In this document: positions 3,801-36,233 of the stretch, piece after piece
Layout of the letters: every line of letters begins with the position of its first letter
Position numbering within the stretch: position 1 is the first letter of the stretch
Source of the DNA: Spirochaetia bacterium
GTDB lineage: Bacteria; Spirochaetota; UBA4802; UBA5550
Length of the DNA stretch: 52,241 bases
Direction of reading: 5' to 3'
NCBI GenBank assembly: GCA_009885955.1
Contig: VFJS01000067.1
Coordinates: forward strand, 1-52,241
The notes under the pieces: model-generated
Told to the model about the DNA's origin: nothing
Database searches by the model: none
What the model saw: the letters and a program-made list of their open reading frames with translations, nothing else
Position numbers and translations under genes: made by a program

Positions 3801-5681
3801 TTAATCATTAAAAATCATTGTGCATGAAATTAAATTGTCTTCAACCCTCTTTTTCATGTCAGGGAAATATTTTTCGAAAACCCGGACCATGGACTGGTTG
3901 TTCAGGAGCACCTCGGCATTGAAGCCGTGAAGCCCCTCTTTTCTCCCGAGGAGGATGATATAGGCCATGAGTTCAGATCCGATACCCCGGTTCTGGAACT
4001 GGTCGCTCACGGCAAAGGCCACCTCAGCGGTATGGGTATTTTCATTTTTATACATCTGCCCCATCCCTGCAATAATTTCATGTTCATTCTCGGTTACTAC
4101 CGCAAGGATTATCATCTCCCTGGTATAGTCTATAGTGGTAAAGACTTTCCTCATGTCATGGGGGATATCTTTCCTCATTGACATGAATCTGAATTCAAGG
4201 CTCTTATCCGAGAGGGAATAGAAAAAATCCTTTATCATCGGTTCATCATTAATTTTCACCGGCCTCATGAACACCAGTGTCCCGTCCTGCAGGGACCGGT
4301 ATGTCTCAAGGTGTTCCGGGTAAAGCCCCCTCTCCCCGGGGAGTATCGTCTGGTCGCTGTAAATGAGCTTCAGTTTTTTTGCTTCCTCGATCAGGAAGGA
4401 CTTGAATTTGGGATGGGCAATGGCTATGAGGTCCATTGCCCGTTCCCGTATGTTTTTCCCGTGGATATAGGCGATGCCGAATTCCGTGACGATGTAATGG
4501 ATGTCTCCCCGGTTCAGGGTCACTCCGACACCGCTCTCCAGCAGGGGCACAATCCTTGAAACGGCCCCGTACATGGCCGTGGACTGGAGGACAAGGATTG
4601 ATTTACCGCCCGGGGCAAGGATGGCGCCGCGCATGAAATCGGCATGCCCGCCGATGCCGCTGTAGAATGTGTCGCCAATCGATTCCGAAGTGGACTGGCC
4701 TGTGAGATCCACCTGGAGCGCAGAGTTAATTGCAGTCATATTTTTTATCCCGGCAATGATCATCGGGTTGTTCGTGAAGTCAATGGGGTTGAAGTCGATC
4801 TCGGGATTATCGTCGAGATAGGCATAGGTCTCCTTCGTCCCCATGCAGAAAGCTGCCACGGTTTTCCCCCTCTTTATATTTTTTTTTGAATTATTGACAA
4901 TTCCCTTTTTTATAAGGTATATGATGGAGTCCGTAAGGAGCTCGGTGTGCACGCCCAGGTCCTTCTTGTTTTCCAGGCTTTTCAGAATCGCATTGGGGAG
5001 GCTTCCGTAGCCGATCTGAATCGTATCACCGTCATTTATAATCCTTGCGACATATTTGCCTATCTGTTCCGCTATGGTATCCGGGACAACGGGTCTATAT
5101 TCAAGGAGAGGCTCATCATAGGGTATCATGAAGTCAATTTTGCTGATATGTACAAAGGAGTCTCCATGGACCCTGGGCATATTTGAATTTAACTGGGCTA
5201 TTGTCAGGGTGGAATTTTCAATTGCGGCTTTGGTTATATCAACGCTGATTCCCAGGCTCACAAAGCCGTTTTTATCGGGAAGGGATGTCTGCACCAGGGA
5301 GATGTTAATCGGAATTTTTTTTGAATGGATGAGGCCCGGAACATGGGAGAGGAAAATGGGAGTATAATCAGCCAGCCCGCGGTTTACCGGGTCCCTGGTG
5401 TTGTCGGAAATAAAAAATGAATTGTGCCGGAAATTATAGGTGAATTTTTCATTTACATAAGGGGCAAGGCCCAGGGTCCAGACGTGCATGATCTCGGCAT
5501 CGGCAAAGGCCTTGGGGTTCGATTCCACATATTCAATGAGCGCTTTAATGAGGTACTGCGGGGCTCCGCACCCGGTGCCTATATAAATCCTGTCGCCCCT
5601 GCGGATGTTCCTGAAGACATCGGCCATGGGAATGAATTTTTCCGGGTACTGCGACATGTATTGGTTAAGTAATTCGTTCAT
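3801..5681 (-). CDS. Acetyl-CoA hydrolase/transferase-family protein fused to a GNAT acetyltransferase
   Basis: 626 residues from the ATG at 5681, which overlaps the upstream regulator's stop as ATGA, so translation is probably coupled; a TTG eight codons upstream is the alternative. Residues ~1-450 match the 4-hydroxybutyrate/acetyl-CoA CoA-transferase family: GVHTE with the likely catalytic Glu247, the loop GGHADFMRG at ~344-352 and TEFGIA at ~399. Residues ~472-626 are a GNAT domain with the acetyl-CoA loop QNRGIG at ~563-568. This GNAT is clearly similar to the one ending the PatZ-like protein at 16753-19422. The first half should move CoA between acyl groups; the second may acetylate proteins or small amines. 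Its place last in a kinase/regulator operon suggests a signalling link, which is inference. Confidence 0.88.
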   Translation of the reverse strand: MNELLNQYMSQYPEKFIPMADVFRNIRRGDRIYIGTGCGAPQYLIKALIEYVESNPKAFADAEIMHVWTLGLAPYVNEKFTYNFRHNSFFISDNTRDPVNRGLADYTPIFLSHVPGLIHSKKIPINISLVQTSLPDKNGFVSLGISVDITKAAIENSTLTIAQLNSNMPRVHGDSFVHISKIDFMIPYDEPLLEYRPVVPDTIAEQIGKYVARIINDGDTIQIGYGSLPNAILKSLENKKDLGVHTELLTDSIIYLIKKGIVNNSKKNIKRGKTVAAFCMGTKETYAYLDDNPEIDFNPIDFTNNPMIIAGIKNMTAINSALQVDLTGQSTSESIGDTFYSGIGGHADFMRGAILAPGGKSILVLQSTAMYGAVSRIVPLLESGVGVTLNRGDIHYIVTEFGIAYIHGKNIRERAMDLIAIAHPKFKSFLIEEAKKLKLIYSDQTILPGERGLYPEHLETYRSLQDGTLVFMRPVKINDEPMIKDFFYSLSDKSLEFRFMSMRKDIPHDMRKVFTTIDYTREMIILAVVTENEHEIIAGMGQMYKNENTHTAEVAFAVSDQFQNRGIGSELMAYIILLGRKEGLHGFNAEVLLNNQSMVRVFEKYFPDMKKRVEDNLISCTMIFND

Positions 5682-6352
5682 TGCTGCTGCTCGTCCTGTA
5701 TCCAAAGCGTAGCCCTCTGAACAAGTTCAATGGCATTCTTGAGATTCAGTTTCTCTTTAATATGGATCCTGTGGTTTTCAACAGTCTTAACGCTGACATT
5801 GAGCTTCCCCGCAACCTGCCTTGAGCTGAACCCGCGGCCTATCAGGACAAAGATCTCCAGTTCCCTGTCGGTGAGGAGGTCCACAGGCGTAGCATCGATT
5901 TTGGGCTTTCCTTCTAGTATGAAGCTGAAGATCCTTGTCGCTATCTCATCGCTTACGTAAATATTCCCCTGTGCCACTCGCCTGATTGCCTTTATGATTA
6001 TCTCCGGGGCCTCCTGCTTCATGATATATCCCTTTGCGCCGGCCCTCAGCGCGCGTTCGGCATACATTTTTTCGTCATGCATGGAGAGCACTATGATAGG
6101 CATTAACGGGAGATGGCCCTTCGTCTCCTTAATGAGGTCTATGCCGCTCCGGTCTTTCAGGGAGATGTCAACGATTGCCATGTCGGGCTTAATTTTGATC
6201 ATTGATTTCAGGGCGATGAAGGTGTCTTCAGCCTCCCCGCAGACCTCCATGTCTTTTTCATTGTTAATCAGCTGGACAAGTCCCTTCCTGAATATTGGAT
6301 GGTCCTCCACGAGAAACAGCCTGATTTTTTTATCTTTCGTCGAATCGGGCAT
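5678..6352 (-). CDS. NarL/FixJ-family response regulator
   Basis: 224 residues. An N-terminal receiver domain has the acidic pair at VEDH, phospho-acceptor Asp62 in IVDIS and Lys112. A C-terminal LuxR-type helix-turn-helix at ~155-220 has LTDRELEIF and SVKTVENHR. It lies 15 bases downstream of the histidine kinase gene and overlaps the CoA-transferase/GNAT start by four bases, so the three genes are one operon and the kinase is its likely partner. It is paralogous to the regulator at 43977-44639. Confidence 0.93.
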   Translation of the reverse strand: MPDSTKDKKIRLFLVEDHPIFRKGLVQLINNEKDMEVCGEAEDTFIALKSMIKIKPDMAIVDISLKDRSGIDLIKETKGHLPLMPIIVLSMHDEKMYAERALRAGAKGYIMKQEAPEIIIKAIRRVAQGNIYVSDEIATRIFSFILEGKPKIDATPVDLLTDRELEIFVLIGRGFSSRQVAGKLNVSVKTVENHRIHIKEKLNLKNAIELVQRATLWIQDEQQQ

Positions 6353-9172: not shown

Positions 9173-9201
9173 TTGACTTTGTTCTCAGTATTTAGTATTT
9201 T
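9173..9201 (+). promoter_or_regulatory. Candidate promoter for the cytochrome genes
   Basis: TTGACT at 9173-9178 and TATTTT at 9196-9201 with 17 bases between. The -10 is weak, but the position, ~30 bases before the ATG at 9234, fits. Confidence 0.4.
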
Positions 9202-9233: not shown

Positions 9234-10082
9234 ATGAGCAAAATAAAATTTATCATTCTAACATCACTTTTTTCTCTCTTTATGCCTTTTGTCCTGACAA
9301 AGTGCAGTGACCTGCGTACCACGAATAACCCTGAAGATTCAAAATGCGATTCGTCCCAATGTCATGGCTCAACCCTGCTTGGCCGTATCACACCTGATTC
9401 AGGAAGGCACGAGGCTCACCTGAACAGGGGATATACCTGTGAAAATTGCCATAAAAATTATTATAGTAATGAAAGGCATAAGAACGGTATCTATGATAAG
9501 GATACGGATACAGGAATTGTTTTTTTCAATGAGTCAAACAGCGGCACAGCCTGGAATAATTCCAGCGGCAGCTGTTTGAATATTCAATGCCATGTCACTC
9601 TAGTGCCATCGGTGAAAAATGTTTTCAGGCTGGTTACTGTCCGGTCTGCACCTTCGGCAAGCTGGTACGGCTCCGATACCGGATGCACCCTGTGCCACGC
9701 GCCGGGAACCGGCATTGACCCTCTCGCCACAAACGGGAGCGGTACCGCAGGCAAGCATATCGTCCATGTGGGGAAGGGGATTGACTGCCAGGCCTGCCAT
9801 TCCAATTATAAATCCAGCGAGCCCCACATGAACGGAGCCTATGGAACAGGCGAACCGGGCATCATTGTCTATTTTAATTCACTGAATCCCCTGGCCGTTT
9901 GGAATGCCGGTAATACCACATGCAGCAGCATGAACTGCCACGGAAGCGCAGACTGGTACACTGCTGCAGAAATGACATGCCAGGGCATGCCATGTTTCCG
10001 GAAATATAACCGGTGCAGTAGATCCCGTGACAACAAACGGGTCCGGCCTGAACGGAAAACATACAACGCATGTATCGGATAA
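9234..10082 (+). CDS. Multihaem c-type cytochrome, 5' part of a frameshifted gene
   Basis: The first ~250 residues are normal; the tail after about base 9985 is out of frame. The N-terminus is a signal peptide, with a possible relaxed lipobox before Cys in VLTKC. Haem motifs alternate CX4CH and CX2CH: CDSSQCH, CENCH, CLNIQCH, CTLCH, CQACH, CSSMNCH. This is the pattern of the Geobacter-type C4xCH/C2xCH repeat. Removing one G from the GGG at 9983-9985 changes the reading to a further CQACH motif and runs straight into the next frame at 10027. The original protein would be 739 residues (9234-11454). It is a predicted envelope or surface electron carrier. The start has no clear Shine-Dalgarno. 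Confidence 0.85.
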   Translation: MSKIKFIILTSLFSLFMPFVLTKCSDLRTTNNPEDSKCDSSQCHGSTLLGRITPDSGRHEAHLNRGYTCENCHKNYYSNERHKNGIYDKDTDTGIVFFNESNSGTAWNNSSGSCLNIQCHVTLVPSVKNVFRLVTVRSAPSASWYGSDTGCTLCHAPGTGIDPLATNGSGTAGKHIVHVGKGIDCQACHSNYKSSEPHMNGAYGTGEPGIIVYFNSLNPLAVWNAGNTTCSSMNCHGSADWYTAAEMTCQGMPCFRKYNRCSRSRDNKRVRPERKTYNACIG

Positions 10083-11454
10083 AGGAATATCCTGCCAAAA
10101 ATGCCATTACGGCTACAAGGCTGCGGCTGCACATGCCAATGGCACCCTGGACACCGGTAATCCGGCAGTTATTGCTGCATTATTTGATTCCACAAACCCC
10201 TCAGGGCAATGGTCCAATGATACAGGTCCGGGAACGGGCCGGTGCTTACAGCTTCAGTGTCATGGGTCTTCAGCACTGGACTGGTACGGGTCAGGTGCAT
10301 GGACCCTGCCGTCATGCGATACCTGTCACAATGCATCCATCGGTACGAGGCGGCAGGTGACGGGGAGCGGCGGCGATTTCGGCGCAAATCCAGGCATCAG
10401 GTCGCACCATGTTGCCACCAGTACTGCCGGTAATGATCCGACTGCTGAGCAGTGCAAGGTATGCCATTATATGAGCACTCACATGGGAGGCATTGTTAAA
10501 TTAAAAAATGCCGATACCGGGAATCCCATATTATACAGTTCATCAACACCCTCGGCCCTTGAGGCCTTCTGCCTCAGCTGCCATGATACTGATGGAGCCA
10601 TATCAACCTATTATGCGCCCGACGGCACAGCGACCGGCACCGATCCCTTCCATGACGGGAAGACGCTTGGCGCTGGGTTGTTTGTAGCAGGCAATAAAAT
10701 CAAGGGCTACTGGAATAATACATATACCGTCCACAAGGACAAAGGTCTCACATGCGCCGGTACCGGGGAGGCCGGGACCGGATGCCACGGGAGCAATGGG
10801 GTAGTGAATATACACGGTTCCGTATCCAAAGGCATTCTCACTAAAAACCTGACGCTTCCTGCTCCTAAATCGTCAAGCGACCCGCTTCCAAGAAATCCGT
10901 CAAATCCGGCATATGTGAGTTATATAAATAATATCTTTCAACTCTGTTTTGACTGCCATAACGATTACCCGGCAGTTTCTAAAGAGGTCGTTCTTGGATA
11001 CAAACAGGGGGGAAACTATGATCTTTCCTGGGCACCGACCCCCTATTATACATTAAGTATCCAGAGCCTTTTCCGTGATGTTTACACTTATGGGCCCAAA
11101 CCTTATGATGATAATTTTTTTGGCGATCCGAATACTCCAATTCATAATTATCACCTTTTATCATCTGATGGATGGATGCAGGATGTGTGGGCATACCGAG
11201 GCGATGCAGGCCAGACGGGGAGGGCGTCATGTACGACCTGTCATAATGTCCATGGTACTTCTGGAACTGTCAGGAGCACGTATGGTGAATTTGGGATAAC
11301 TGCCTTCAGCGACGGAGGGAATTTGTACAAGACATTGGTGCCAGACACGAATTTTGATGATCCAGTAATGAAAAGTTATCCAATTTATTGTAATATAAAT
11401 TGCCATGGCATGGCTGGACCGTCTTCATACTGGCATACACCGGCAAATGAGTAG
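10027..11454 (+). CDS. Multihaem c-type cytochrome, 3' part of the frameshifted gene
   Basis: This frame opens on a GTG inside a haem repeat (VTTNGSGLNGKH), with no signal peptide and no Shine-Dalgarno, so it is not an independent gene but the continuation of the frame starting at 9234. Haem sites: CQKCH, CLQLQCH, CDTCH, CKVCH, CLSCH, CFDCH, CTTCH and a CX3CH (CNINCH), plus a possible long-spaced C-X10-CH near 10755-10791. Merged with the 5' part, about 15 regular sites are present. The repeat between haems (NGSGxxGKHxxHV then CxxCH) also occurs in the 898-codon frame downstream. Either the gene is a recent pseudogene or the extra G is a sequence error. Confidence 0.85.
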   Translation: MTTNGSGLNGKHTTHVSDKGISCQKCHYGYKAAAAHANGTLDTGNPAVIAALFDSTNPSGQWSNDTGPGTGRCLQLQCHGSSALDWYGSGAWTLPSCDTCHNASIGTRRQVTGSGGDFGANPGIRSHHVATSTAGNDPTAEQCKVCHYMSTHMGGIVKLKNADTGNPILYSSSTPSALEAFCLSCHDTDGAISTYYAPDGTATGTDPFHDGKTLGAGLFVAGNKIKGYWNNTYTVHKDKGLTCAGTGEAGTGCHGSNGVVNIHGSVSKGILTKNLTLPAPKSSSDPLPRNPSNPAYVSYINNIFQLCFDCHNDYPAVSKEVVLGYKQGGNYDLSWAPTPYYTLSIQSLFRDVYTYGPKPYDDNFFGDPNTPIHNYHLLSSDGWMQDVWAYRGDAGQTGRASCTTCHNVHGTSGTVRSTYGEFGITAFSDGGNLYKTLVPDTNFDDPVMKSYPIYCNINCHGMAGPSSYWHTPANE

Positions 11455-11600
11455 CTGGTTTTTTTATTATGGTTAAATTTCTACTATCAAAATTCTGTGA
11501 AATATTTAATCAGTATTAATACTTATTTTTATTGACGAAAAAGGTAGGATTTATTAAATTATATCCACAATTTGTTTTTTTGTTTATACGGCATAAGTCC

Positions 11601-14228
11601 ATGACAATAAGAAATTTTATCAGACTATCAATCCTTATAATTCCCCTTGCTACTTTTGCCCTTAGTAACTGCAGCAAGGAGAGAAGCCTCCTCCCCAAAC
11701 AGGTTTCTACCTGCAATGCCTCGGAATGCCATGCATCGTCCCAGCTCAATAAGTACCCTCCTCAATCAGGGAAGCATGCGCTGCATCTTGTTAACGGACT
11801 GATATGCGAGAATTGCCACAAGGATTATGACAGTAATCCCAAACATAAAAACGGCGTAGTTGATATTTCATCGGACACCGGTGCCGTGAAGTTTGATACA
11901 TACAGCAGTGCAGGGAAATGGTTTTATTCCTCGGGCGAATGCTCAAATCTTGAGTGCCATGGCGGCGGTTCCGTGCCGGTTAAGTGGTATGGGGATGTGC
12001 CTGGCGGATGTACTGTCTGCCATTCTGAAGGGAGCCCCATTGACCCCCTGTTAACAAGCGGAGAGGGGATGAAAGGGAAGCATATCGCCCATGTGGTAAA
12101 TCAGAATATTAACTGCGATAGTTGTCATTATGATTATAAGAAAAACTCTGGTCATATGAATAATATTTATGGAAAGAATGAGGTTGTATCCATTGTAAAT
12201 TATGACGGCATTTTTAAAAACAGTAATGTCTCATTTACCTTTAATGATAATACTGGATTATGCGAAAATATTTCATGCCACGGCACTTCGATTGGAATAG
12301 GCTGGTACAGCGACACGAGCGGCTGCATGGCCTGCCATTCCTCCAGTAATATAAATCCTATTATAACCAACGGCAGCGGGGCCTCGGGAAAACATGTGGA
12401 GCACGTCACTAACAGGGGGATTGAATGCGTCTCCTGCCATTATGACTATAAAAACAACTCCCGGCACATGAACGGCCAGTATGGGCATGCAGAACCAGGC
12501 CTGTTGGTCTTTTTCGGCGGCAAGTGGCCGTCTAATGGTTATAATGTCTCTGCTGCCTTTAACAATCCGAATCCCGGATACTGCAGTGCTATTTCCTGCC
12601 ACGGAGGGACCGGTTACGAAAACTGGTACGCCTCATCTTCCGCGTCCTGCGTCAATTCATGCCATGCAGCGGGAAGCAGAATCGGACCCTCTCCAATAGA
12701 TGCATCTACCGGAAGCCATCCCGGGCATATTTCATCTGCCGGGATTAGCTGCGAAGAATGCCACTCAGGATACAGGAATCTATTGACCCATATCAACGGT
12801 ACGCTGGACATCCCGGCGGCAAATCCAGGGATGTTAAAATTTAATCCGTCACGACACCCGTCCGGGGGATACAGCGCCGGACAGTGCTCAGGGATTTACT
12901 GTCACGGCAGCTTTACCGGCGGCAATAGTTCAATCTACCCGGTGTGGGGAGGGATGGTGAATTGTGCGACGAATGCATGCCATGGCAGCGATGCAAGCGG
13001 AAATCCGGCTGAATCCAATAATCCGGATACAAAACATGGAACACATGTCACAGCCATAACGAATATAACCAACCCGGGAACCGGGTCAAAATATACGAAA
13101 ACCGAATCCTGCCCGGTCTGCCACAGTGGTCATGGTTACGGAACAGGCACCCATGTCAACAGCCAGGCTGATATTACATTCAATTACCAGAATCCCGAGG
13201 GAGCAATGGGTACGTCAACAGGGGGAAACTGGACTCTTTCAGGCTTTAGCCCGGTCCAATGCCAGAATACCTATTGTCATGGAAATTTTTCAGGCGGTAA
13301 TATTGACACAGTTAGCTGGGCTGAATCTAAGAATGATTCGGGATGGTGCGGATCATGCCACAGTGCAAATCCGATATCAGTAAAACATGCAAAACATCTT
13401 GCTGTCTATCCCGGGCAGTGCGTCTACTGCCATGAGGGATATACAGCTGCATCAACCTCTGAAAACCATGTAAATTTAATCAGAGATGTATCTTTCGGGT
13501 ATCCCATAAAGGAAAATACCGGGGGGATGCCTGATTATGAAAATGCTTCAAAAACCTGTTCTTATGTTTATTGTCATGGCTATTTCCCTCGGGTGATGTA
13601 TAATGCAACTACCACGAATCCCGGAAATGCAAACAATCCGATATGGAATTCGTCGTCGGCCGCACTGTGCGGGACATGTCATGGGAATGCCGGTAATAAT
13701 TATTCATCAGCGACTCACAGCATGCATACCAGGAATTTGTCGGGTTCGTATAAAACATATTTCGGCAATCCTATAGGCATTGAAAGCTGTGATGCCTGCC
13801 ATAATTTTGGAACTGATTCGGATAAGAGCTTTACCGCATCCAGTACGCAGGGGAGCTATAATACCGTTAACCATGGGGATTTTTCAATAAGCGATTCCGG
13901 CGTCAATGCTGATGTACTCTTTAAGGCCGATGACAGCGATCTTGCTTCGAGGATTGGCGACATTGTACCGGCAAAGACAACATGGAATCCAGGTTCAACT
14001 TCATGCAGCAATTCCTGGTGCCATGGAAATTTTGATAATGGGGCTGGCTTTGCCGGTAATAATGCTACCAATACCCCGAACTGGCTTGTTCCTTCGACCG
14101 GGGATTGTTTGACATGCCACTCTTATTATAATGGAACGCATAGCGGGGGGTTCAGCTGCACTGGATGCCATCCAATGCATGGGGGAGGTTTTTCCCCACA
14201 CATAAATGGGATATTCGGTGGGTTTTAA
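11601..14228 (+). CDS. Large multihaem c-type cytochrome with 23 CXnCH motifs
   Basis: 875 residues from the ATG at 11601; an in-frame TTG 69 bases upstream would put extra residues before the signal peptide. The N-terminus has a hydrophobic stretch ending ALSNCSKE, a relaxed lipobox as spirochaetes allow. I count 23 haem-type motifs: 13 CX2CH, 9 CX4CH (such as CNASECH, CSNLECH, CSNSWCH) and one CX3CH (CVNSCH). Internal repeats of ~70 residues follow the scheme CX4CH - WYG - CX2CH - NGSGxxGKHxxHV - CX2CH - YDYKxNxxHMNG. This is the family seen in metal-reducing Geobacter; haem loading at CX4CH is not assured and may need a special maturation system. It is probably co-transcribed with the preceding cytochrome, 146 bases away. 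Confidence 0.92.
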   Translation: MTIRNFIRLSILIIPLATFALSNCSKERSLLPKQVSTCNASECHASSQLNKYPPQSGKHALHLVNGLICENCHKDYDSNPKHKNGVVDISSDTGAVKFDTYSSAGKWFYSSGECSNLECHGGGSVPVKWYGDVPGGCTVCHSEGSPIDPLLTSGEGMKGKHIAHVVNQNINCDSCHYDYKKNSGHMNNIYGKNEVVSIVNYDGIFKNSNVSFTFNDNTGLCENISCHGTSIGIGWYSDTSGCMACHSSSNINPIITNGSGASGKHVEHVTNRGIECVSCHYDYKNNSRHMNGQYGHAEPGLLVFFGGKWPSNGYNVSAAFNNPNPGYCSAISCHGGTGYENWYASSSASCVNSCHAAGSRIGPSPIDASTGSHPGHISSAGISCEECHSGYRNLLTHINGTLDIPAANPGMLKFNPSRHPSGGYSAGQCSGIYCHGSFTGGNSSIYPVWGGMVNCATNACHGSDASGNPAESNNPDTKHGTHVTAITNITNPGTGSKYTKTESCPVCHSGHGYGTGTHVNSQADITFNYQNPEGAMGTSTGGNWTLSGFSPVQCQNTYCHGNFSGGNIDTVSWAESKNDSGWCGSCHSANPISVKHAKHLAVYPGQCVYCHEGYTAASTSENHVNLIRDVSFGYPIKENTGGMPDYENASKTCSYVYCHGYFPRVMYNATTTNPGNANNPIWNSSSAALCGTCHGNAGNNYSSATHSMHTRNLSGSYKTYFGNPIGIESCDACHNFGTDSDKSFTASSTQGSYNTVNHGDFSISDSGVNADVLFKADDSDLASRIGDIVPAKTTWNPGSTSCSNSWCHGNFDNGAGFAGNNATNTPNWLVPSTGDCLTCHSYYNGTHSGGFSCTGCHPMHGGGFSPHINGIFGGF

Positions 14229-16752: not shown

Positions 16753-19422
16753 ATGAGCACATTCCGGTTAAATGCTCTATTTAACCCTAAATCCATTGCG
16801 GTAATCGGGGCAACGGCAAGGCCCAATTCCCTCGGAATGCCGATAATGAGGAATCTGATAAGCGGTAATTTCCAGGGGCCCATCCTGCCCGTAAACCCGG
16901 GCTATGACTCCATTCATGGAATACTGTGCTATAAATCAATTGAACATCTCCCCATTGTGCCCGACCTTGCCCTGCTATGCACCCCTCCAGGGACAGTAAT
17001 GACACTGATTGATAAACTGGGGCAGAGGGGGACACGGGTTGTCATAATCATGACAACTGAATTCAATATGTTTGATTCAAAGGGGGAGAATAATTTCAAA
17101 TCGATTTTGACCACTGCGCGAAAGTACGGCATGAGAGTACTGGGGCCAAGTTCCACGGGGATACAGGTACCCAGGATAGGCCTCAACGCAAGCTGGATAA
17201 GCACTGCAGTTAAAAACGGGAAGCTGGCCTTTGTTTCACAGTCCGGATCTTTTACCGCCGCGGTCATGGAATGGGCGAGTCTGAACGGGATCGGCTTTTC
17301 CAATGTAATATCCACAGGGGATACGGTTGATATAGATTTTGGAGATATCCTCGATTTTGTGGCCACTGACAGCCAGACAAGTTCAATTCTCCTGAATATT
17401 CGGTCCATTGAAAACCCCAGAAAATTTCTCTCTGCTGCAAGGGCCGTGGCCCGCATAAAGCCTGTTATCGTCATAAAAGCCGCGCGGCGCTTTGAAAAGA
17501 TCGGTATCCGCGGTGACCACGATTTTTCACAGATTCTGGAGGACGAGGCCTATGACGCCGCAATACGGCGCGCCGGGATGCTGAGGGTGTATAATACCTA
17601 TGAACTTTTTGACGCGGTGGAGACCCTCACCTACGGCCGTATGATCCATGGAGACAGCCTTGCCATCGTATGCAACGGCATCAGCCCCGGGGACATGGCG
17701 GCAGACGCGCTCATACAGGGCGGCGGAAAACTTGCGGAGCTCTCTGAAGAGACCGTCCAGAAGATTTCGGTGATTATATCAAAGAAGCTGTTCAGGACCA
17801 ATCCCATAGATCTCGGCCGCGAAGCCAACGCGGTAAAGTACAGGGAATCAGTTTCAATACTTCTCGACGCCCCGGAGGTTGACGCTGTTCTTGTAATGTA
17901 CACCCCGACTCCCGTGACCCAGAGCAGCGAGATCGCGGCGGCCATCTCCGAAGTTGCCGGGAAAAGCCGCGGCAATCTGATTGCCTGCTGGCTTGGGGAA
18001 AACAGGAGGGATCCGAGGCACAATATTCTTACTCAGTGCGGAATACCGGTCTATGTCACCCCAGATGAGGCCACGAGGGCATTTCTGCATCTCATCCGGT
18101 ACAGAAAAAACCAGGAGATGCTCATGGAGACGCCGCTTATGCTCCCTGAGGAAAGGAGCGCCGACAGGGGGATGGCAAAAGAGATAGTTACAGCAGTACT
18201 CTCCGCAGGGAGAAAGTCTCTTAATGAAGAGGAGACCTCCAGGGTCCTCAACCTCTATGGCATCAATACCCTGGAAACACAATTGCTGAATAAAATTGAT
18301 GATGTCCTTGAATATGCCGATAGGGAGGGATATCCCGTTTCCCTCAGGCTTTCGTCGCCAACGCTCAGGAGGGAACTCTCCGTGGGGAACATATCCTTTG
18401 ACCTTTCTTCCAGGGATGCCGTGGAGGCAGCGGCAGAGGGTATGGATGAAAGGTTTTATAAACGGTATCAGGGACTGCCGCATCCGGGATATGTTGTGCA
18501 GAAGATGACACGCCGTCCCGAGGCGCTGCTCCTTTCCATGGGAATATCCAATGACCCCCTTTTCGGGCCCTTTATTCGCTTTGGAAGGGGAGGGGCTCCC
18601 ACGGGGATTCCCGGTGATTATGCCGTTGCCCTGCCGCCCCTTAACATGAGCCTTGCAGGGGAGCTTATCGCTCAGACAAATGTGGGTAAAATGATCAGCA
18701 TGAGGAATAGCCGGAGTCCAATAAATGATAATGAAATAAGGACCATGCTGGTGCGGATCTCCGACCTCCTCATCGACATCCCGGAACTCGTGGCCATGGA
18801 CATCAACCCGCTCCTGGCCGACGGCAGCGGCACGGTCATCATTGATGCGCGGATGTCTGTGCAGCCCTCATTCAAAGAGGATGAACGCCTGTCCATAAGG
18901 CCCTATCCAAGAGAGCTTGAAGATACATACGCGTTGAAAAACGGCATTGAACTGAGCGTCCGCCCCATAAAACCTGAGGATGAGCCGAACTACATCAAGC
19001 TCCTTTCCCTTGTCAGTCAGAAGGATCTGCGCATGAGATTTTTCAGTGAAACCAGGGATCTTCCCAAGGGGCTCCTTGCCCAGCTTATCCATATCGATTA
19101 TGACAGGGAAATGGCCTTCGTAGCCGTTTTAAAGAAAAATGAGATGGAATTTGACATTCTGGGAGTTGTAAACATCAATGCGACAAATGACAGGTTTATA
19201 GCCGAATATTCCATCCTTGTCCGGTCCGATATGAAGGGCCAGGGGCTCGGCAGATATTTAATGGAAAAGATTATTCATTATTGCAGGGACAAGGGAATGA
19301 AGACAATTTTCGGAATAGTCAATAACAATAACAGCGAAATGATACGGCTTACAGAAAAATTGGGCTTTAAAACCAATTATTTTTATGACGATGATATCAT
19401 TGAAGTGCGCCTTGATATATGA
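16753..19422 (+). CDS. PatZ-like protein acetyltransferase: NDP-forming acyl-CoA synthetase-like region plus GNAT
   Basis: 889 residues, near the usual ~880 of the PatZ/Pat family. Order: CoA-binding domain (residues ~5-130, SIAVIGA), succinyl-CoA-ligase-like domains (~140-460, including YDAAIRRAGMLRV and RYRKNQEML as in PatZ), ATP-grasp-like region (~475-715) and GNAT (~735-889) with KGQGLGRYLM as the acetyl-CoA loop. In characterised relatives the synthetase half is inactive and senses acetyl-CoA, while the GNAT half acetylates lysines such as that of acetyl-CoA synthetase. The usual phospho-His motif of active ADP-forming synthetases is not clear. A catalytic acyl-CoA synthetase remains possible. 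It is a single gene, with a GNAT homologous to that at 3801-5681. Confidence 0.88.
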   Translation: MSTFRLNALFNPKSIAVIGATARPNSLGMPIMRNLISGNFQGPILPVNPGYDSIHGILCYKSIEHLPIVPDLALLCTPPGTVMTLIDKLGQRGTRVVIIMTTEFNMFDSKGENNFKSILTTARKYGMRVLGPSSTGIQVPRIGLNASWISTAVKNGKLAFVSQSGSFTAAVMEWASLNGIGFSNVISTGDTVDIDFGDILDFVATDSQTSSILLNIRSIENPRKFLSAARAVARIKPVIVIKAARRFEKIGIRGDHDFSQILEDEAYDAAIRRAGMLRVYNTYELFDAVETLTYGRMIHGDSLAIVCNGISPGDMAADALIQGGGKLAELSEETVQKISVIISKKLFRTNPIDLGREANAVKYRESVSILLDAPEVDAVLVMYTPTPVTQSSEIAAAISEVAGKSRGNLIACWLGENRRDPRHNILTQCGIPVYVTPDEATRAFLHLIRYRKNQEMLMETPLMLPEERSADRGMAKEIVTAVLSAGRKSLNEEETSRVLNLYGINTLETQLLNKIDDVLEYADREGYPVSLRLSSPTLRRELSVGNISFDLSSRDAVEAAAEGMDERFYKRYQGLPHPGYVVQKMTRRPEALLLSMGISNDPLFGPFIRFGRGGAPTGIPGDYAVALPPLNMSLAGELIAQTNVGKMISMRNSRSPINDNEIRTMLVRISDLLIDIPELVAMDINPLLADGSGTVIIDARMSVQPSFKEDERLSIRPYPRELEDTYALKNGIELSVRPIKPEDEPNYIKLLSLVSQKDLRMRFFSETRDLPKGLLAQLIHIDYDREMAFVAVLKKNEMEFDILGVVNINATNDRFIAEYSILVRSDMKGQGLGRYLMEKIIHYCRDKGMKTIFGIVNNNNSEMIRLTEKLGFKTNYFYDDDIIEVRLDI

Positions 19423-20988: not shown

Positions 20989-22944
20989 ATGGCAGGTGGT
21001 CAATTTCCAAAAAGTCCTAATAAATTTCACCCTACTACGCCCAGTGCTGTAGGTTCCAGAAATTCGATAGTACAGGAGGGCAGGGATAAAATTGATGAGC
21101 AGAGAGTTCTTCTCGAGGAGACTACCGATAAGGTATTGAATCATATTGAGACAAAACTTGCTCCCGAAGTACTGGAAAAACTTGATGTAATGGGGGGCCT
21201 TAAAGAGAAGCTCTACCGTTATGTTAACCAGCACTATGTTAACATGTTCAATAGATATACCGTGACCATGGAAGACGAATTTTTGAAAAAAGTCAGGGAC
21301 TTCACTGACAAGGAAGAGTCAAAGGGCCTCAACAGGTATACTCCGAAAGAGATTACCGAGATGCTTGATAAAATAGGCGGTTCAGACAAGTTCCATACTG
21401 GTGAGATTGAAAAATCGATTGTAAACATGTATGGTCACCTTCAGGGCCACATCCAGAGGGGTGTCAACGACCTTGAGACTGAAACCAATGCCATATTAAG
21501 GCAGAAGACCGATGTCGGAGCTTTTGTCCGCGGTGAAAACGCATATTCAGTTTTAAAATGCGTTTTTAAAGATAATGCAATGAGGCCCAAGTATGTTTAT
21601 GATGTAAAGTTGTCTATCAACATACTGGACAGCGAGCTCATAAGCCCGGTCTATCATTACCAGGCAACTCTCGAGACTCTCATGAAAGATGCCATTCAGA
21701 AGCATATTCATGAACTCATTGACCACCAGGTCCAGACGCTGAATGAGGACCTTATCGATCAGGGGAAAAGAGACCTGAATGCAAGTGAGATGATGTTTGA
21801 GAGAATTAAGAAGATTGAGAATTACACAGGCGATGAAAAAGAGGATGAGAAGTCCAAGAGATATACCATCCTTGCAAAGAGATTCCTTGACAAGATTGAG
21901 GGGCTCAGGGCCGAGATTGATGAGCAGGACAAGGATCCTCTGAATATCAGGGATAATATCAAGTACATCATCGACCAGGAGAATATAAGGAACAGGGGAT
22001 ATAATACCAGCGTAAACTCGCTGACATCAATCCTCGACACCAGTAAGCTCGGTTACCAGGTATGCGACAACCTGAAAAACGCAAGGGTCTGCCATGTAAG
22101 GGAGTATGAATCAACTGACCCGGCTGAATTACCCGATGAAAGGTACAGGATGAGGCTTGCATATTATGACCTGAACCAGTTAAGAGAAGAGAAGAGAGAG
22201 TATGATAAGCAGATGCATGCCTTCTCTGTTCAGGTGGCGGAGCTCTGGGATGTAACTCATGCCCATTATGAATCAAAGAAGAGATTCAGATCCCTTATCG
22301 ACTTGGATGACCTTGCAGGCAGGCTCATGACCAAAGAGTGGAGAAATGAAAGGAAATCGAGGGAAGCTGATCCCGAGCATGTTCTCTGGAATGAAATCGG
22401 GCAGATGTATAATGAAAATACCTTTGTAGAGAAGAATAACAGGACCTATGAGGACAGGATAAAGAATCTTAAAAACAAACTCAAGTATCTGAGAAATATT
22501 CTTGTTGAGATGCATGAGTTCCAGAACCCGATTGAAAGGGTTATCCTGGATGAGAGGATCAATTATCTCACACTCAAGTTCAACGATTTTACCTATCTTG
22601 TAAATCCTCATCATATACAGCCCGGAGTTGTTCTTGATATAGACATAACCACTATAAAGAGAAAACTCTATATGCTTAAAGGTATGGCAAACGTTCTTAA
22701 CGAATTCCTCTACGGAATATCAAAAGGATTTGCCGATGCTGCATTCGCAACATACAGCAGAAGGAGATCAACCGTGAGATCCGATATTGAGCAGTCTTTC
22801 ACCGAAGATGAAGTGAAAGAGGAATTCTTTGAGTCTCAATTCAAGAAGCCTGGTGGTGAATCTCCGGCAGAAGCTGTCGGCGCAGTTGACCTTTCAGGAA
22901 AGAACAGGCCTAAGAAGAAGAGTACGGGATTAAAAGAGTTATAA
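20989..22944 (+). CDS. cfpA: Cytoplasmic filament protein A (CfpA)
   Basis: 651 residues, mostly helical and charged. The ATG follows AGGAGG at a good distance. The sequence agrees with Treponema CfpA as I remember it along its length: the N-terminal VQEGRDK block, ETTDKVL, KLAPEVLEKLD, GGLKEKLYRYVNQHY, NMYGHLQGHIQRG, RQKTDVGAFVRGENAY and KLSINILDSELISP. CfpA builds the ribbon of cytoplasmic filaments under the flagella in treponemes and is needed there for normal cell division and motility. It is specific to spirochaetes, so this gene identifies the phylum. It is likely monocistronic: terminators lie on both sides. It is slightly shorter than the treponemal protein (~680 residues). Confidence 0.93.
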   Translation: MAGGQFPKSPNKFHPTTPSAVGSRNSIVQEGRDKIDEQRVLLEETTDKVLNHIETKLAPEVLEKLDVMGGLKEKLYRYVNQHYVNMFNRYTVTMEDEFLKKVRDFTDKEESKGLNRYTPKEITEMLDKIGGSDKFHTGEIEKSIVNMYGHLQGHIQRGVNDLETETNAILRQKTDVGAFVRGENAYSVLKCVFKDNAMRPKYVYDVKLSINILDSELISPVYHYQATLETLMKDAIQKHIHELIDHQVQTLNEDLIDQGKRDLNASEMMFERIKKIENYTGDEKEDEKSKRYTILAKRFLDKIEGLRAEIDEQDKDPLNIRDNIKYIIDQENIRNRGYNTSVNSLTSILDTSKLGYQVCDNLKNARVCHVREYESTDPAELPDERYRMRLAYYDLNQLREEKREYDKQMHAFSVQVAELWDVTHAHYESKKRFRSLIDLDDLAGRLMTKEWRNERKSREADPEHVLWNEIGQMYNENTFVEKNNRTYEDRIKNLKNKLKYLRNILVEMHEFQNPIERVILDERINYLTLKFNDFTYLVNPHHIQPGVVLDIDITTIKRKLYMLKGMANVLNEFLYGISKGFADAAFATYSRRRSTVRSDIEQSFTEDEVKEEFFESQFKKPGGESPAEAVGAVDLSGKNRPKKKSTGLKEL

Positions 22945-29756: not shown

Positions 29757-30812
29757 CTATTTTTTTATCATCATCATTCTTCTTTTTCTTAAAAAAATTA
29801 TCTTTGATATTACAATGGATATTTCATAAAGAAACATTACCGGGACTGCAATGAGGATCTGTGTGATAATATCAGGCGGCGACACTGCGGCAACAGCGAT
29901 CCAGATGAAAAGTATGGCATATTTTCTCTTTGAAATAAGAAATGCAGGTGTTATAATGCCCAGTTTTGAAAAAATTAAAATTATCAGAGGGAATTCGAAA
30001 AGCACACCTGCAGCGATGGAGAGGAGGAGGATAAAATTTACGTAGTCATCGGCGCCGATTTTTGTTACCATCTCATTGCCGATAAATCCCAGTAAAACCC
30101 TGAGGGCGCCGGGAAGGACTAAAAAAAATATAAAGGCAATACCGGAATAAAAAAGGAAAAAAGAAGAAAAAATTATCTTTATTGAAAATTTTCTGTACTC
30201 TTTTGAAACAGCCGGCATGATGTATTTCCAGATATTATAGAGTATTATCGGGATGCTGAGTATCAGACTGAAGATGATAGATGTTTTAAACCGTATCATG
30301 AACCCGCCTGTCATTTTAAATATATTGAGCCTGTGTCCGGTGTCGTTAATCGGATTGTTGATATAACTCAATATTTGATCGGACAGGAAAAACCCGGTGA
30401 TTATGAGGACAATCAGGATGCCCAGGCAGTAGATCAGCCTTTTTCTGAATTCATCGAGATGGTCCACCAGGCTCATTGCCTGGTCGCCTCTTTTTATTGC
30501 GGCCAGATCCTCCTCTGTGATAACTTCATTCTCACTGTTTTTTTCATAGAGGAGAGTTTTATTTTCCTGGGGAATTGCTTTCCTGCTTTCCTTTATAAGA
30601 GCAGGGATAAGAGATTTTTTTTTATTGATTTTTTTATTCCTGCCTGGAACTCTGATGCTGCTGGCGCCCATACCGGCAGTGCCGGTTTTTTTTGGTGCCG
30701 GTTTTTTTATGGCTCTGCCCCCTGATCTTTCAGGTTTTTTTATTGAATTCGGTTTTTTTGTTTTCTTCTTTTTTACATTTCCTGAATCGGCCAATTTAGT
30801 GCTCCTGTTCAT
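29757..30812 (-). CDS. tatC: Twin-arginine translocase subunit TatC with a basic N-terminal extension
   Basis: The TatC core begins at about residue 113 (MSLVDHLDEFRKRL) and has six transmembrane helices as usual. Before it lie ~110 residues rich in Lys, Pro and Gly (KKKKTKKPN, IKKPAPKKTG), of low complexity and probably disordered. An internal ATG at 30476 with an upstream GAGG could start a normal 239-residue TatC, so the extension may be untranslated; the open frame through a Lys-rich stretch speaks for a real extension. TatC recognises twin-arginine signal peptides of folded proteins at the inner membrane. No tatA or tatB lies nearby. Confidence 0.9.
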   Translation of the reverse strand: MNRSTKLADSGNVKKKKTKKPNSIKKPERSGGRAIKKPAPKKTGTAGMGASSIRVPGRNKKINKKKSLIPALIKESRKAIPQENKTLLYEKNSENEVITEEDLAAIKRGDQAMSLVDHLDEFRKRLIYCLGILIVLIITGFFLSDQILSYINNPINDTGHRLNIFKMTGGFMIRFKTSIIFSLILSIPIILYNIWKYIMPAVSKEYRKFSIKIIFSSFFLFYSGIAFIFFLVLPGALRVLLGFIGNEMVTKIGADDYVNFILLLSIAAGVLFEFPLIILIFSKLGIITPAFLISKRKYAILFIWIAVAAVSPPDIITQILIAVPVMFLYEISIVISKIIFLRKRRMMMIKK

Positions 30813-33283: not shown

Positions 33284-34078
33284 ATGATGAGATCATTGTG
33301 GACAGCAGCATCCGGGATGATTGGGCAGCAGTTTAATATTGATACCCTGGCAAATAACCTGTCGAATGTAAATACCACCGGCTTTAAGAAGCAGAGGGCT
33401 GAATTTGAGGACCTCCTGTACCAGACAGTGCTTCTTGCAGGCACACCGGCAACTGAAGTTTCAGAGGTGCCTACAGGTATCCAGGTGGGCCATGGAGTAA
33501 AGGTCTCGGCGACTCAGAAGATGTTCACCCAGGGGAGCCTCCAGTCCACGGAGAATAAGCTCGACCTGGCAATGGAAGGAGACGGTTTTTTTAAAATTCA
33601 GCTCTATGACGGGACATTTGCATATACAAGGGACGGTTCTTTTAAAATTGATTCAAACAGGCAGATTGTAACATCAAGCGGCTATCTGCTTGAGCCGCCA
33701 ATGGTGCTCCCGGAAAATTCAAATATGGAGACGTTCTCCATAAGCCAGGACGGGAGGATCACCGTAAAGGTGTCGGGGGACGATAACCCGGTGGAAATCG
33801 GCCAGATGGAAGCATACAGGTTCGTGAATCCTGCAGGCCTCAGGAGCATTGGCGGGAACCTCTATAAGACAACTCCGGCATCGGGCGAGGAAATTCCGGG
33901 ACAGCCCGGCATCGATGGGATGGCAAAGCTCCACCAGGGCTTTCTTGAAATGTCCAATGTAAAAGTGGTGGAGGAGATGGTTAATATGATAGTGGCGCAG
34001 AGGGCCTATGAGATCAATTCAAAGGCAATACAGACCTCGGATTCGATGCTCGGAACAGCCATATCGCTTAAGAGATAA
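33284..34078 (+). CDS. flgG: Flagellar distal rod protein FlgG
   Basis: 264 residues, typical FlgG length. N-terminal MRSLWTAASGM and NTLANNLSNVNTTGFKKQRAEF, and the C-terminal LEMSNVKVVEEMVNMIVAQRAYE and KAIQTSD, are the rod-family helices that pack in the axial structure. It forms the distal rod of the flagellum, periplasmic in spirochaetes. First gene of a tight cluster; its stop overlaps the flgA start (TAATG). Confidence 0.96.
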   Translation: MMRSLWTAASGMIGQQFNIDTLANNLSNVNTTGFKKQRAEFEDLLYQTVLLAGTPATEVSEVPTGIQVGHGVKVSATQKMFTQGSLQSTENKLDLAMEGDGFFKIQLYDGTFAYTRDGSFKIDSNRQIVTSSGYLLEPPMVLPENSNMETFSISQDGRITVKVSGDDNPVEIGQMEAYRFVNPAGLRSIGGNLYKTTPASGEEIPGQPGIDGMAKLHQGFLEMSNVKVVEEMVNMIVAQRAYEINSKAIQTSDSMLGTAISLKR

Positions 34079-34596
34079 TGATGCTGAAATGGGGATATGG
34101 GGCGCTGGCAATTCTTCTCTATTCATCAATCCTTCATGGTGATGTGAGGGTCTACCTATTCCCTGAAGCAGAAGCCGGTAAGGATGGGCTCAGGATGGAG
34201 GATGTGGCAAAATTTGAAGGCCCGGTCAATGAAGTGGAGATGATACGTGGCGCAGTAATTGAAAAAAGGATTTATTCCGATGGTTTCCTCGACAGGAGCA
34301 GGCTCCATGAACTCCTCAGGGAAATGACCGGGGAGACAATACACATATACGGGAATGCTGTTAAAATTATTCTCCCTGTTTCACTGGACGGCAGGGAGAA
34401 GAAACAAGAGGACAGCCTTGTAAAATCCGGAGACCCGGTAGTCCTGGCCATTATAAAAAGAGGGATACGGATCGAGGTGGATGGAGTTGCCGTAAACGGC
34501 GGCTCCGAGGGCGATATGATAACGGTGAAGGTAAAAAACAGGAAGAGCCTGCAAGGGGTCATTGTTAACAGAAGGCTTGTTGAGGCCCGGCTGTGA
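34078..34596 (+). CDS. flgA: Flagellar P-ring assembly chaperone FlgA
   Basis: 172 residues, on the short side. Two adjacent ATG codons, the first overlapping the flgG stop. An N-terminal signal sequence (WGYGALAILLYSSILHG) sends it to the periplasm. The C-terminal part has the FlgA pattern: SGDPVVLAIIKRGIRI, SEGDMITVKVKNRKSLQGVIV. In other bacteria FlgA helps FlgI polymerise into the P ring, and flgI lies two genes on. Ends in a GTGA overlap with flgH. Confidence 0.87.
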   Translation: MMLKWGYGALAILLYSSILHGDVRVYLFPEAEAGKDGLRMEDVAKFEGPVNEVEMIRGAVIEKRIYSDGFLDRSRLHELLREMTGETIHIYGNAVKIILPVSLDGREKKQEDSLVKSGDPVVLAIIKRGIRIEVDGVAVNGGSEGDMITVKVKNRKSLQGVIVNRRLVEARL

Positions 34597-35231
34597 AAAG
34601 AATCATGAAAACAGCTCTTATCATTGTAACTCTGTTTTTCAGTACGTCTCTGCTCATTTCCAAAACCATATGGGTCGACAGGAATATATATTCCTCTGAC
34701 GGCAACATGAACCTGGGGGATATCATAATCGTAAACATTAACGACATGTCTGATATGAGGTTCAGCATCAACATGAATACACGCACCTCAAATGATCTCA
34801 CATCAAATCCCGATGTGACGATAACCGGTTTTCTTCCAAAAATTTCATCGAGCAAAAACATGAGCTTCAGGGATTCTGCAACACTCTCTGAGAAAGGACA
34901 GGTGAATGTATCTATAGCGGCAAAGGTTACGGGAAAGGGGGATAAAGGGACCTATGCCATAAACGGCTCCAGGACCTATTCCTTCAACGGCGTTACAAAC
35001 AGGATTTCTGTTTCGGGTTCCATAGACCCCTACCTTATAAAGGGAAGGAGCATCGATTCCGCAAAGATTGCCGATTTCAGGGTGGAGATAAAGGGTTCCA
35101 TGGAAGGGCTGGAGATAAAAAGGCCCCCGTTAAAGGAGAAAGAGACTGCGAACACAACCCTTACCGAGGGGGAAAAACAGAGGTTAATAATGGATTATCT
35201 TGAAAAAATGATAAGGGAGCTTTCCAGGTAA
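34593..35231 (+). CDS. flgH: Flagellar L-ring protein FlgH
   Basis: 212 residues from a GTG that overlaps the flgA stop; an ATG four codons later is possible. Signal sequence, then IWVDRNIYSSDGNMNLGD, GDIIIVNIND and the C-terminal VSGSIDPYLIKGRSIDSAKIADFRVEIKG in FlgH style. Enterobacterial FlgH is a lipoprotein; this one has no cysteine at the processing site (LLISKTIW), so it is not outer-membrane anchored by lipid. That is sensible in a spirochaete whose flagella stay in the periplasm. Confidence 0.9.
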   Translation: MKRIMKTALIIVTLFFSTSLLISKTIWVDRNIYSSDGNMNLGDIIIVNINDMSDMRFSINMNTRTSNDLTSNPDVTITGFLPKISSSKNMSFRDSATLSEKGQVNVSIAAKVTGKGDKGTYAINGSRTYSFNGVTNRISVSGSIDPYLIKGRSIDSAKIADFRVEIKGSMEGLEIKRPPLKEKETANTTLTEGEKQRLIMDYLEKMIRELSR

Positions 35232-35234
35232 GGC

Positions 35235-36233
35235 ATGATGAGAATTTTTATTATTTCCATGACAGCGGCTCTGCTGATTATGTTCCCGCCGGTATCCCGA
35301 TCCGAAGTTTCAGTAAAACTCAAGGACATATCGTTCATTGACGGCCTCAAGCCTAACCAGGTATACGGATTCGGCCTGGTTGTGGGGCTCCAGGGTACAG
35401 GGGACTCCAGGTCCATGATAACAAGGTCGTCTCTTAAAAATACACTAAAGTCCCTGGGCCTTGAAGGAGACGATGCAAATTCAAAAAATACAGCCGCAGT
35501 TCTTCTTACGGCCCAGCTTCCGCCATTTGTCAGGATCGGCGACAGGATCGACATTACCGTTTCATCAATCGGCGATGCCAAGTCGCTGGAGGGCGGGATT
35601 TTAATCCAGTCTACACTCAAAGGCGGCGACAACATAACCTATGCCGTGGTTCAGGGGCCTCTTGCCATTCAGGGGGGTGACGGCAAGGTCCGCGGCGTAA
35701 AAACCGTAGCCGTTGTAACCGGCGGCGGTGTGATAGAAAAGGAGATAATTCCCGATATTGTAAAGAACAATGCAATCTTTCTGGTTCTGAGCAACTGGGA
35801 CTACAGCGCTGCCGACAGCATTATCAAGTCGCTTGAAAAGCAGTTCCCGGAATCCAAACCTGAGAGCGGAGACGGAAAAATAAAGATAAACCTTCCGAAA
35901 GACGTAAAGCTCCATGAGTTTATTTCGGCCATTCAGAACATAGAAATAACGCCGGCATATAACGCACGGGTTGTTGTCAATGAAAGGACAGGCACCATAG
36001 TGACAGGCGGGAATGTGAAAATATCCGAGGCCATTGTGAGCAAGGAGGGTGTGACGGTTGAAATTGCAAAAAGCGATAAGCGTGGGTCCGTGGCCCATTT
36101 AAAGGAATCGGGCACGGTTAAGGACCTCATGGATGTACTTAACCTCATCGGGCTTTCAACAAGGGACATCATATCTATTCTCAAAGCACTGAAGGACGCC
36201 GGGGCCCTTCACGCGGAACTTATTATCAAGTGA
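35235..36233 (+). CDS. flgI: Flagellar P-ring protein FlgI
   Basis: 332 residues, with an N-terminal signal sequence. Family segments: VKLKDISFIDGLKPNQVYGFGLVVGLQGTGD in pieces, NTAAVLLTAQLPPFVRIGDRIDITVSSIGDA, ARVVVNERTGTIVTGG and the C-terminal TVKDLMDVLNLIGLSTRDIISILKALKDAGALHAEL region. It forms the ring around the rod at the peptidoglycan. Spacing of three bases from flgH shows one transcript. Confidence 0.95.
   Translation: MMRIFIISMTAALLIMFPPVSRSEVSVKLKDISFIDGLKPNQVYGFGLVVGLQGTGDSRSMITRSSLKNTLKSLGLEGDDANSKNTAAVLLTAQLPPFVRIGDRIDITVSSIGDAKSLEGGILIQSTLKGGDNITYAVVQGPLAIQGGDGKVRGVKTVAVVTGGGVIEKEIIPDIVKNNAIFLVLSNWDYSAADSIIKSLEKQFPESKPESGDGKIKINLPKDVKLHEFISAIQNIEITPAYNARVVVNERTGTIVTGGNVKISEAIVSKEGVTVEIAKSDKRGSVAHLKESGTVKDLMDVLNLIGLSTRDIISILKALKDAGALHAELIIK

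Follow-up and report, generated by a model that had tools for sequence, protein, structure and literature searches.

The 52,241-base window analysed here is an entire contig (VFJS01000067.1; C5 in our numbering) of the genome of a Spirochaetia bacterium (G000; 4.77 Mb in 117 contigs, 98.35% complete). Between positions 9234 and 14228 it carries two forward-strand genes, A and B, for large multihaem cytochromes, which are candidates for the outer end of a porin-cytochrome conduit. Such conduits are the main known route by which bacteria with two membranes respire solids or trade electrons with partners. The two genes were compared with the rest of their genome and with a sample of 393 genomes from the phylum, 20 of them from their own taxonomic family. 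What we say of electron transfer, localisation, haem loading, partners, direction and acceptor is drawn throughout from gene content and sequence.

Gene A (9234-11454) is not one open frame in the assembly. Two open reading frames (ORFs), at 9234-10082 and 10027-11454, belong to a single gene read in two frames, a break that the earlier sequence-only reading had left unmentioned. Seven bases (CAGGGCA) separate TGC (9978-9980) from TGCCAT (9988-9993), where CXXCH needs six, and the frameshift thus falls within a haem motif; it may be a sequencing or assembly error or a real mutation. The 5′ part opens with a hydrophobic N-terminus ending ...VLTK-C-SDLR and holds three CX4CH and three CX2CH motifs; the 3′ part holds six CX2CH, one CX4CH and one CX3CH, plus a conserved CX9CH. 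Leaving the CX9CH aside, gene A has 14 intact motifs and the one broken by the frameshift, 15 in all. Family members in the related genomes G006 (contig C67) and G011 are likewise split by frameshift or deletion, at other places than gene A. The split genes lie at L054:9137-11280 and L053:672-5070 (G011, G006) and may reflect assembly errors or real decay. Programmed frameshifting is not claimed; the three splits differ in position.

Gene B was listed as an ORF at 11532-14228. We place its start at ATG 11601 (MTIRNF...LSNC-S), because TTG 11532 doubles as the first hexamer of a promoter-like site. Its N-terminus resembles that of a lipoprotein (...FALSN-C-SKER), and it carries 13 CX2CH, 9 CX4CH and one CX3CH motif, so that the counts given by the sequence-only reading (about 15 and 23) were right. 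The motifs are mostly arranged, as in a giant paralog on contig C10, as CX4CH, about 20-30 residues, CX2CH, about 30 residues, CX2CH and about 50 residues, repeating. Residue shuffles gave means of 0.07, 0.06 and 0.27 CX2CH/CX4CH motifs for the 5′ part of A, the 3′ part of A and B, respectively, against 6, 7 and 22 observed, which excludes a chance origin.

The family model for CxxxxCH/CxxCH cytochromes, TIGR01904/PF09698, named for Geobacter, matches gene B over seven stretches and the 5′ part of gene A, both above its cut-off of 27 bits, while the 3′ part scores 18.9 bits, below it. The alternating CX4CH/CX2CH scheme is that of the GSu C4xC/C2xCH family, with which the sequence-only reading had proposed a comparison. 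A and B differ from the named family in having a spirochaete as host, in their link through orthology to a porin without a match in the libraries searched, and in the CX9CH block that gene A and its homologues carry. The 3′ part of gene A also matches PF22113 (MtrC/MtrF-like domains II/IV; cut-off 30 bits), and a distant domain relationship to MtrC/MtrF is possible. No PDB chain matched gene B at E 0.1, and the C-terminal domain of gene A had neither a PDB match nor relatives among viral contigs. Searches of plasmids found no relatives of gene B or of the porin described below. An AlphaFold2 model of gene B, aligned with its homologue at the related locus L031, was unusable (predicted local distance difference test score, pLDDT, 24).

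Table 1. Features of the cytochrome locus and the spirochaete marker on the same contig.
Feature	Position	Strand	Basis and remarks
Promoter-like site 5′ of gene A (TTGACT-17-TATTTT)	9173..9201	+	Consensus match alone, 9/12; AT-rich region where chance matches are many
Gene A, 5′ part	9234..9980	+	6 haem motifs; ORF, motif list, TIGR01904 41.1 bits
Frameshift inside a CXXCH of gene A (TGC-CAGGGCA-TGCCAT)	9978..9993	+	Sequence
Gene A, 3′ part (ORF listed 10027-11454)	9988..11454	+	8 CX2-4CH and one CX9CH; PF22113 37 bits
CX9CH block (C-AGTGEAGTG-CH)	10753..10788	+	Conserved in gene A and four homologues
Promoter-like site 5′ of gene B (TTGACG-17-TAAATT)	11532..11560	+	Consensus match alone, 9/12
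Gene B	11601..14228	+	875 aa from ATG 11601; 23 haem motifs; TIGR01904 143.7 bits
CfpA, cytoplasmic filament protein	20989..22944	+	NF040882 894 bits (equivalog; cut-off 500); spirochaete marker, outside the cytochrome system

The putative porin-cytochrome gene pair of this genome lies on another contig. Profiles of the porin and the periplasmic protein located it at C60:29413-32379, where a gene for a 446-residue putative porin is followed by one for a 536-residue cytochrome with 19 CXXCH motifs and then by one for an 8-haem protein. The sequence-only reading had seen in A and B a possible means of periplasmic or extracellular electron transfer, and a gene pair resembling those used for the latter is present. 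At L031 a 576-residue putative porin comes first, followed by a periplasmic protein with 11 haems and a surface-type cytochrome of 1382 residues with 33 CX2-4CH motifs. G011 has the same three genes, with the surface gene split. This triad is adjacent in L031, G011, G015, G019, G152 and G105, and its porin and periplasmic protein are homologous across these genomes. G105 and G152, of family f38, combine a 21-haem periplasmic protein with a lipoprotein-like cytochrome of 958-971 residues, which shows significant local similarity to genes A and B.

The porin profile (seven sequences) matches 9 of the 393 genomes: six in the family of G000, G196, and G105 and G152 in a third family. In every one the porin stands beside a periplasmic multihaem cytochrome, and usually a homologue of A and B, a cytochrome of surface type, is adjacent too. 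With the pair present in 6 of the 20 genomes of its own family, the trait is patchy. TIGR01904 itself is found at E ≤ 1e-6 in five genomes of the survey (G000, G006, G011, G015 and G196), all five of which also have the porin. These frequencies bear out the earlier suggestion that such multihaem proteins are unusual for spirochaetes. The periplasmic protein is of the c7 kind, with 3ov0 as its best solved relative; its haem number varies (11, 15, 19, 21), and its sequence can be matched with itself in several registers, as would result from module duplication. We call the other protein a porin because of its gene position, hydrophobic N-termini, C-terminal Phe (aromatic-type ...x-F) in 8 of 9 sequences, and conservation.

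Genes A and B are tied to this conduit by homologues that lie in the conduit loci of relatives, that of gene A in G006 and that of gene B at L031. In G006 the contig with the conduit opens within a multihaem gene, which ends 477 bp before the porin; over its last 105 residues the encoded protein shares 62% identity with gene A. Another fragment at a contig end of G006 matches a stretch in the middle of gene A at 58% identity. On these matches gene A is probably orthologous to the surface cytochrome of the G006 conduit and is unlinked from the conduit in its own genome. Gene B is 46-47% identical (BLAST) to each of the L031 conduit cytochrome and a 1270-residue protein encoded on C10 of G000, which are 52% identical to each other; it groups with these two by sequence, as a shorter version. 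Between G000 and L031 the porins align at about 25% identity, the periplasmic proteins at 29% and CfpA at 62%, values that are no more than suggestive of a transfer of the surface-cytochrome gene between families. The porin and periplasmic trees place G000 with G006, keep the two f38 genomes close together and give G196 a long branch; because of these groupings and that branch, neither vertical descent nor exchange is shown. In surface cytochromes of another spirochaete family we also observed a segment ECDDGN-x-x-NGDGC near the C-terminus, followed in L101 and L102 by a hydrophobic and basic tail like a sorting signal; an ORF of G196 ends in a similar segment. The loci concerned are L101:3265-6180, L102:3095-5971 and L118:3-665.

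Genes A and B are part of a larger set. Five further large family members are encoded in the same genome, on C10 (1270 and 2803 residues), C70 (824), C80 (837) and C95 (776), and the seven together have about 200 predicted haem sites. The 2803-residue giant (L041:10722-19133) has 50 CX2CH, 27 CX4CH and one CX3CH, 78 motifs in very regular triplets, and adjoins the 1270-residue paralog and two-component genes. Nearly all N-termini of the family consist of a hydrophobic segment ending at Cys, usually followed by Ser, as in lipoproteins. At three loci (L042 on C10, L103 on C7 and L104 on C39) a cytochrome with 4-5 haems is encoded together with a multi-spanning membrane protein and a protein resembling ferredoxin. 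At L042, the one compared with families, the membrane protein matches DsrP at 400 bits (cut-off 350) and the iron-sulfur protein has DsrO as its best match, below cut-off, so that the module is DsrOP/Qrc-like. Modules of the NrfD type are known from other bacteria to exchange electrons with quinones. The genome also encodes c7-type proteins. A second candidate barrel (501 residues), paired with a 13-haem protein, lies at C10:163307-165913 (L088:8307-10913) and apparently represents a separate conduit.

We therefore propose that A and B are multihaem cytochromes anchored by lipid on the outer surface, as the outermost part of a porin-cytochrome conduit in this spirochaete, a reading to which we assign a probability of roughly 0.72. 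Quinol would be oxidised by the inner-membrane modules of 4-5-haem cytochrome, iron-sulfur protein and NrfD-type membrane protein, and electrons would then travel through periplasmic c7/c3-type cytochromes to the 19-haem periplasmic cytochrome encoded on C60. This protein would be held by the putative β-barrel porin encoded beside it and would hand electrons on to the surface lipoproteins A, B and their five paralogs, whose closely spaced haem chains could pass them to minerals, humics, electrodes or partner cells. The route could also run in reverse, bringing electrons into the cell. Should the frameshift be real, this strain would lack an intact gene A, and the task would fall to B and the paralogs.

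Several observations weigh against this proposal. A and B lie on C5 and the porin pair on C60, so that the link is one of orthology and paralogy and not of position; G018 has the porin and the periplasmic protein but no TIGR01904 match; gene A is frameshifted; and neither A (LTK-C) nor B (LSN-C) has a textbook lipobox. Searches of Pfam, NCBIfam and PDB assigned the porin to no known family of porins, and AlphaFold2 of the L031 porin alone gave an unusable model (pLDDT 31). Its amphipathic-strand count, obtained with a home-made measure, is weakly above that of shuffles (z 0.4-2.1) and is no proof of a barrel.

The separation from the porin and the atypical lipoboxes would suit a different arrangement, in which A and B store or shuttle electrons within the periplasm, serving soluble reductases or acting as a buffer, and the C60 conduit uses other proteins; periplasmic multihaem capacitors do occur in other bacteria. 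We consider this unlikely, given the lipoprotein-like N-termini across the family and the homologues that stand directly beside the porin and periplasmic cytochrome in several genomes. The very high haem number in repeats and the large size of these secreted proteins could also bring to mind extracellular cytochrome filaments (nanowires) like OmcS, OmcE and OmcZ. Such polymerisation is very improbable here, since the N-termini look lipid-anchored and gene B, the one compared, is without homology to any solved chain at E 0.1 in a collection that should include the known cytochrome filaments.

It could further be argued that the region is foreign to the spirochaete, through a chimeric contig or bin, or is a decaying remnant without function, and the frameshift in gene A and the shortness of gene B relative to its closest relatives would fit. 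We give this scarcely any credence. CfpA, found in all 10 genomes searched, G000 included, is encoded on the same contig about 7 kb downstream of gene B, and homologues of A and B occur in other genera of the same taxonomic family; because of this linkage and these homologues a binning error is very unlikely for the window. One genome, moreover, holds seven large family members, maturation genes and a conduit. The relative at L031, deposited as 'Spirochaetia bacterium isolate Bin_58_12', matches G196 (3072 of 3072 31-mers shared), which is assigned to the same phylum. The window is thus spirochaetal and its genome has cytochrome maturation genes, the two points on which the sequence-only reading had made itself depend.

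Those maturation genes (system I) form one block on C10, ccmA-B-C-(x)-E-F, contiguous and beside haem biosynthesis genes; each scores under its NCBIfam cut-off, while best matches and gene order agree. A search of the genome with PF01578 returned one CcmF, one CcmC, a 261-residue CcsA/HemX-like frame on C41 (65 bits) and a weak match next to hemA, with no second CcmF-sized lyase; there is no lyase beside gene A or B, and ResB was not found in the genome. The conduit contig of L031 has a CcsB-type (system II) gene, and the homologue encoded there has 12 CX4CH motifs. In Methanosarcina acetivorans the ordinary Ccm machinery attaches haem covalently to MmcA at CX3CH as well as CX4CH motifs (PMC11024163). 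The earlier suggestion that CX4CH attachment may need a special haem lyase is thus not borne out: the single Ccm system, the CcsB-type gene of L031 and the case of MmcA give no reason to invoke one. Haem attachment to CXXCK and to CX15CH does have dedicated lyases (PMC6976685), and the C41 frame may encode one.

The C-terminal domain of gene A contains a more unusual spacing, in the form LTC-x-G-x-G-x-x-GTG-CHG with N-x-HGS after it. This CX9CH spacing and the LTC...CHG...N-x-HGS residues are invariant in A, the C70 and C80 paralogs and two G006 proteins, where they form the densest conserved block of the domain; besides gene A the block occurs at loci L045, L044, L050, L051 and L110. An X8 variant is found in the C67 protein of G006, and an X9 remnant stands next to stop codons in G196. 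The sequence H-x-x-K-G-L precedes CX9CH in A, C80 and the C33 protein of G006, as H-x-x-x-x-K-G-I precedes CxxCH in canonical repeats. The block may bind haem as a site with a long spacer, or its two cysteines may serve a structural role. That it is a genuine covalent haem site, matured by the ordinary Ccm system, is a tentative reading to which we give somewhat less than even odds. The C-terminal end of the surface protein likewise has CX7CH in G019 versus CX4CH in its relative G015. If CX9CH binds haem, the family would have let its Cys-Cys spacer drift widely (CX2, CX3, CX4, CX6, CX7 and CX9), and the block offers a direct test of how much motif spacing cytochrome c maturation tolerates. 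A full-text literature search for 'CX9CH' gave nothing relevant, and we found no record of such a spacer length.

The proposed spirochaete conduit shares its three roles with conduits in general (Mtr, Pcc/Omb-Oma-Omc, Ext and PCC3), with the genes side by side in the spirochaete relatives. Its haem numbers recall those of PCC3, whose periplasmic proteins have 21-27 haems and whose surface proteins have 10-35 (PMC10734462). Unlike in Mtr, the periplasmic protein is of c7 type, carries 11-21 haems and stays far below the MtrA/DmsE cut-off: the 19-motif C60 cytochrome scores 47.4 bits against 192.2 for TIGR03508. The porin is unlike MtrB/PioB in the libraries searched, which lacked reference models for the Geobacter Omb/Ext and PCC3 porins, and neither A nor B matches OmcA/MtrC (TIGR03507). 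The 78-motif C10 paralog falls into the size class of the giant multihaem cytochromes of Desulfobacterota and archaea, represented by proteins of Desulfuromonas acetexigens with up to 86 motifs (PMC12133095) and by those of the methanotrophic archaea ANME-2/3 with 20-80 sites and S-layer domains (PMC9012536).

Multihaem cytochromes are already known in Spirochaetota from transcriptomes. Fatty-acid-degrading members of the phylum express such proteins, proposed for direct interspecies electron transfer, and in the passages of that report consulted neither a conduit nor a porin nor the CX4CH family is mentioned (Nobu et al. 2020, PMC7382037). For another spirochaete, Leptonema illini, enriched on an electrode, the role was judged questionable (PMC8258643). 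We found no description of a spirochaete porin-cytochrome conduit in the literature searched, which covered subscription journals thinly; on this weak evidence the conduit seems new. If the proposal is right, it adds Spirochaetota as a phylum whose extracellular respiration is nearly unstudied, and passage of electrons outward or inward through a pore would be a rare and barely described way of breathing among spirochaetes. The porin profile would then provide a marker with which the suggested part of uncultured spirochaetes in direct interspecies electron transfer can be tested.

Elsewhere in the window, flagellar genes for FlgG and the P-ring protein FlgI (33284-36233) share the contig with CfpA; P-ring genes are not known to be general among spirochaetes. 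A TatC protein (29757-30812) has a long N-terminal extension, its TatC domain beginning at residue 115. GNAT acetyltransferase domains are fused to an acetyl-CoA hydrolase/transferase (3801-5705) and to an acetyl-CoA-ligase-like protein (16753-19422), and a protein encoded at 327-2801 combines many ankyrin repeats with a prolyl-oligopeptidase-like segment.

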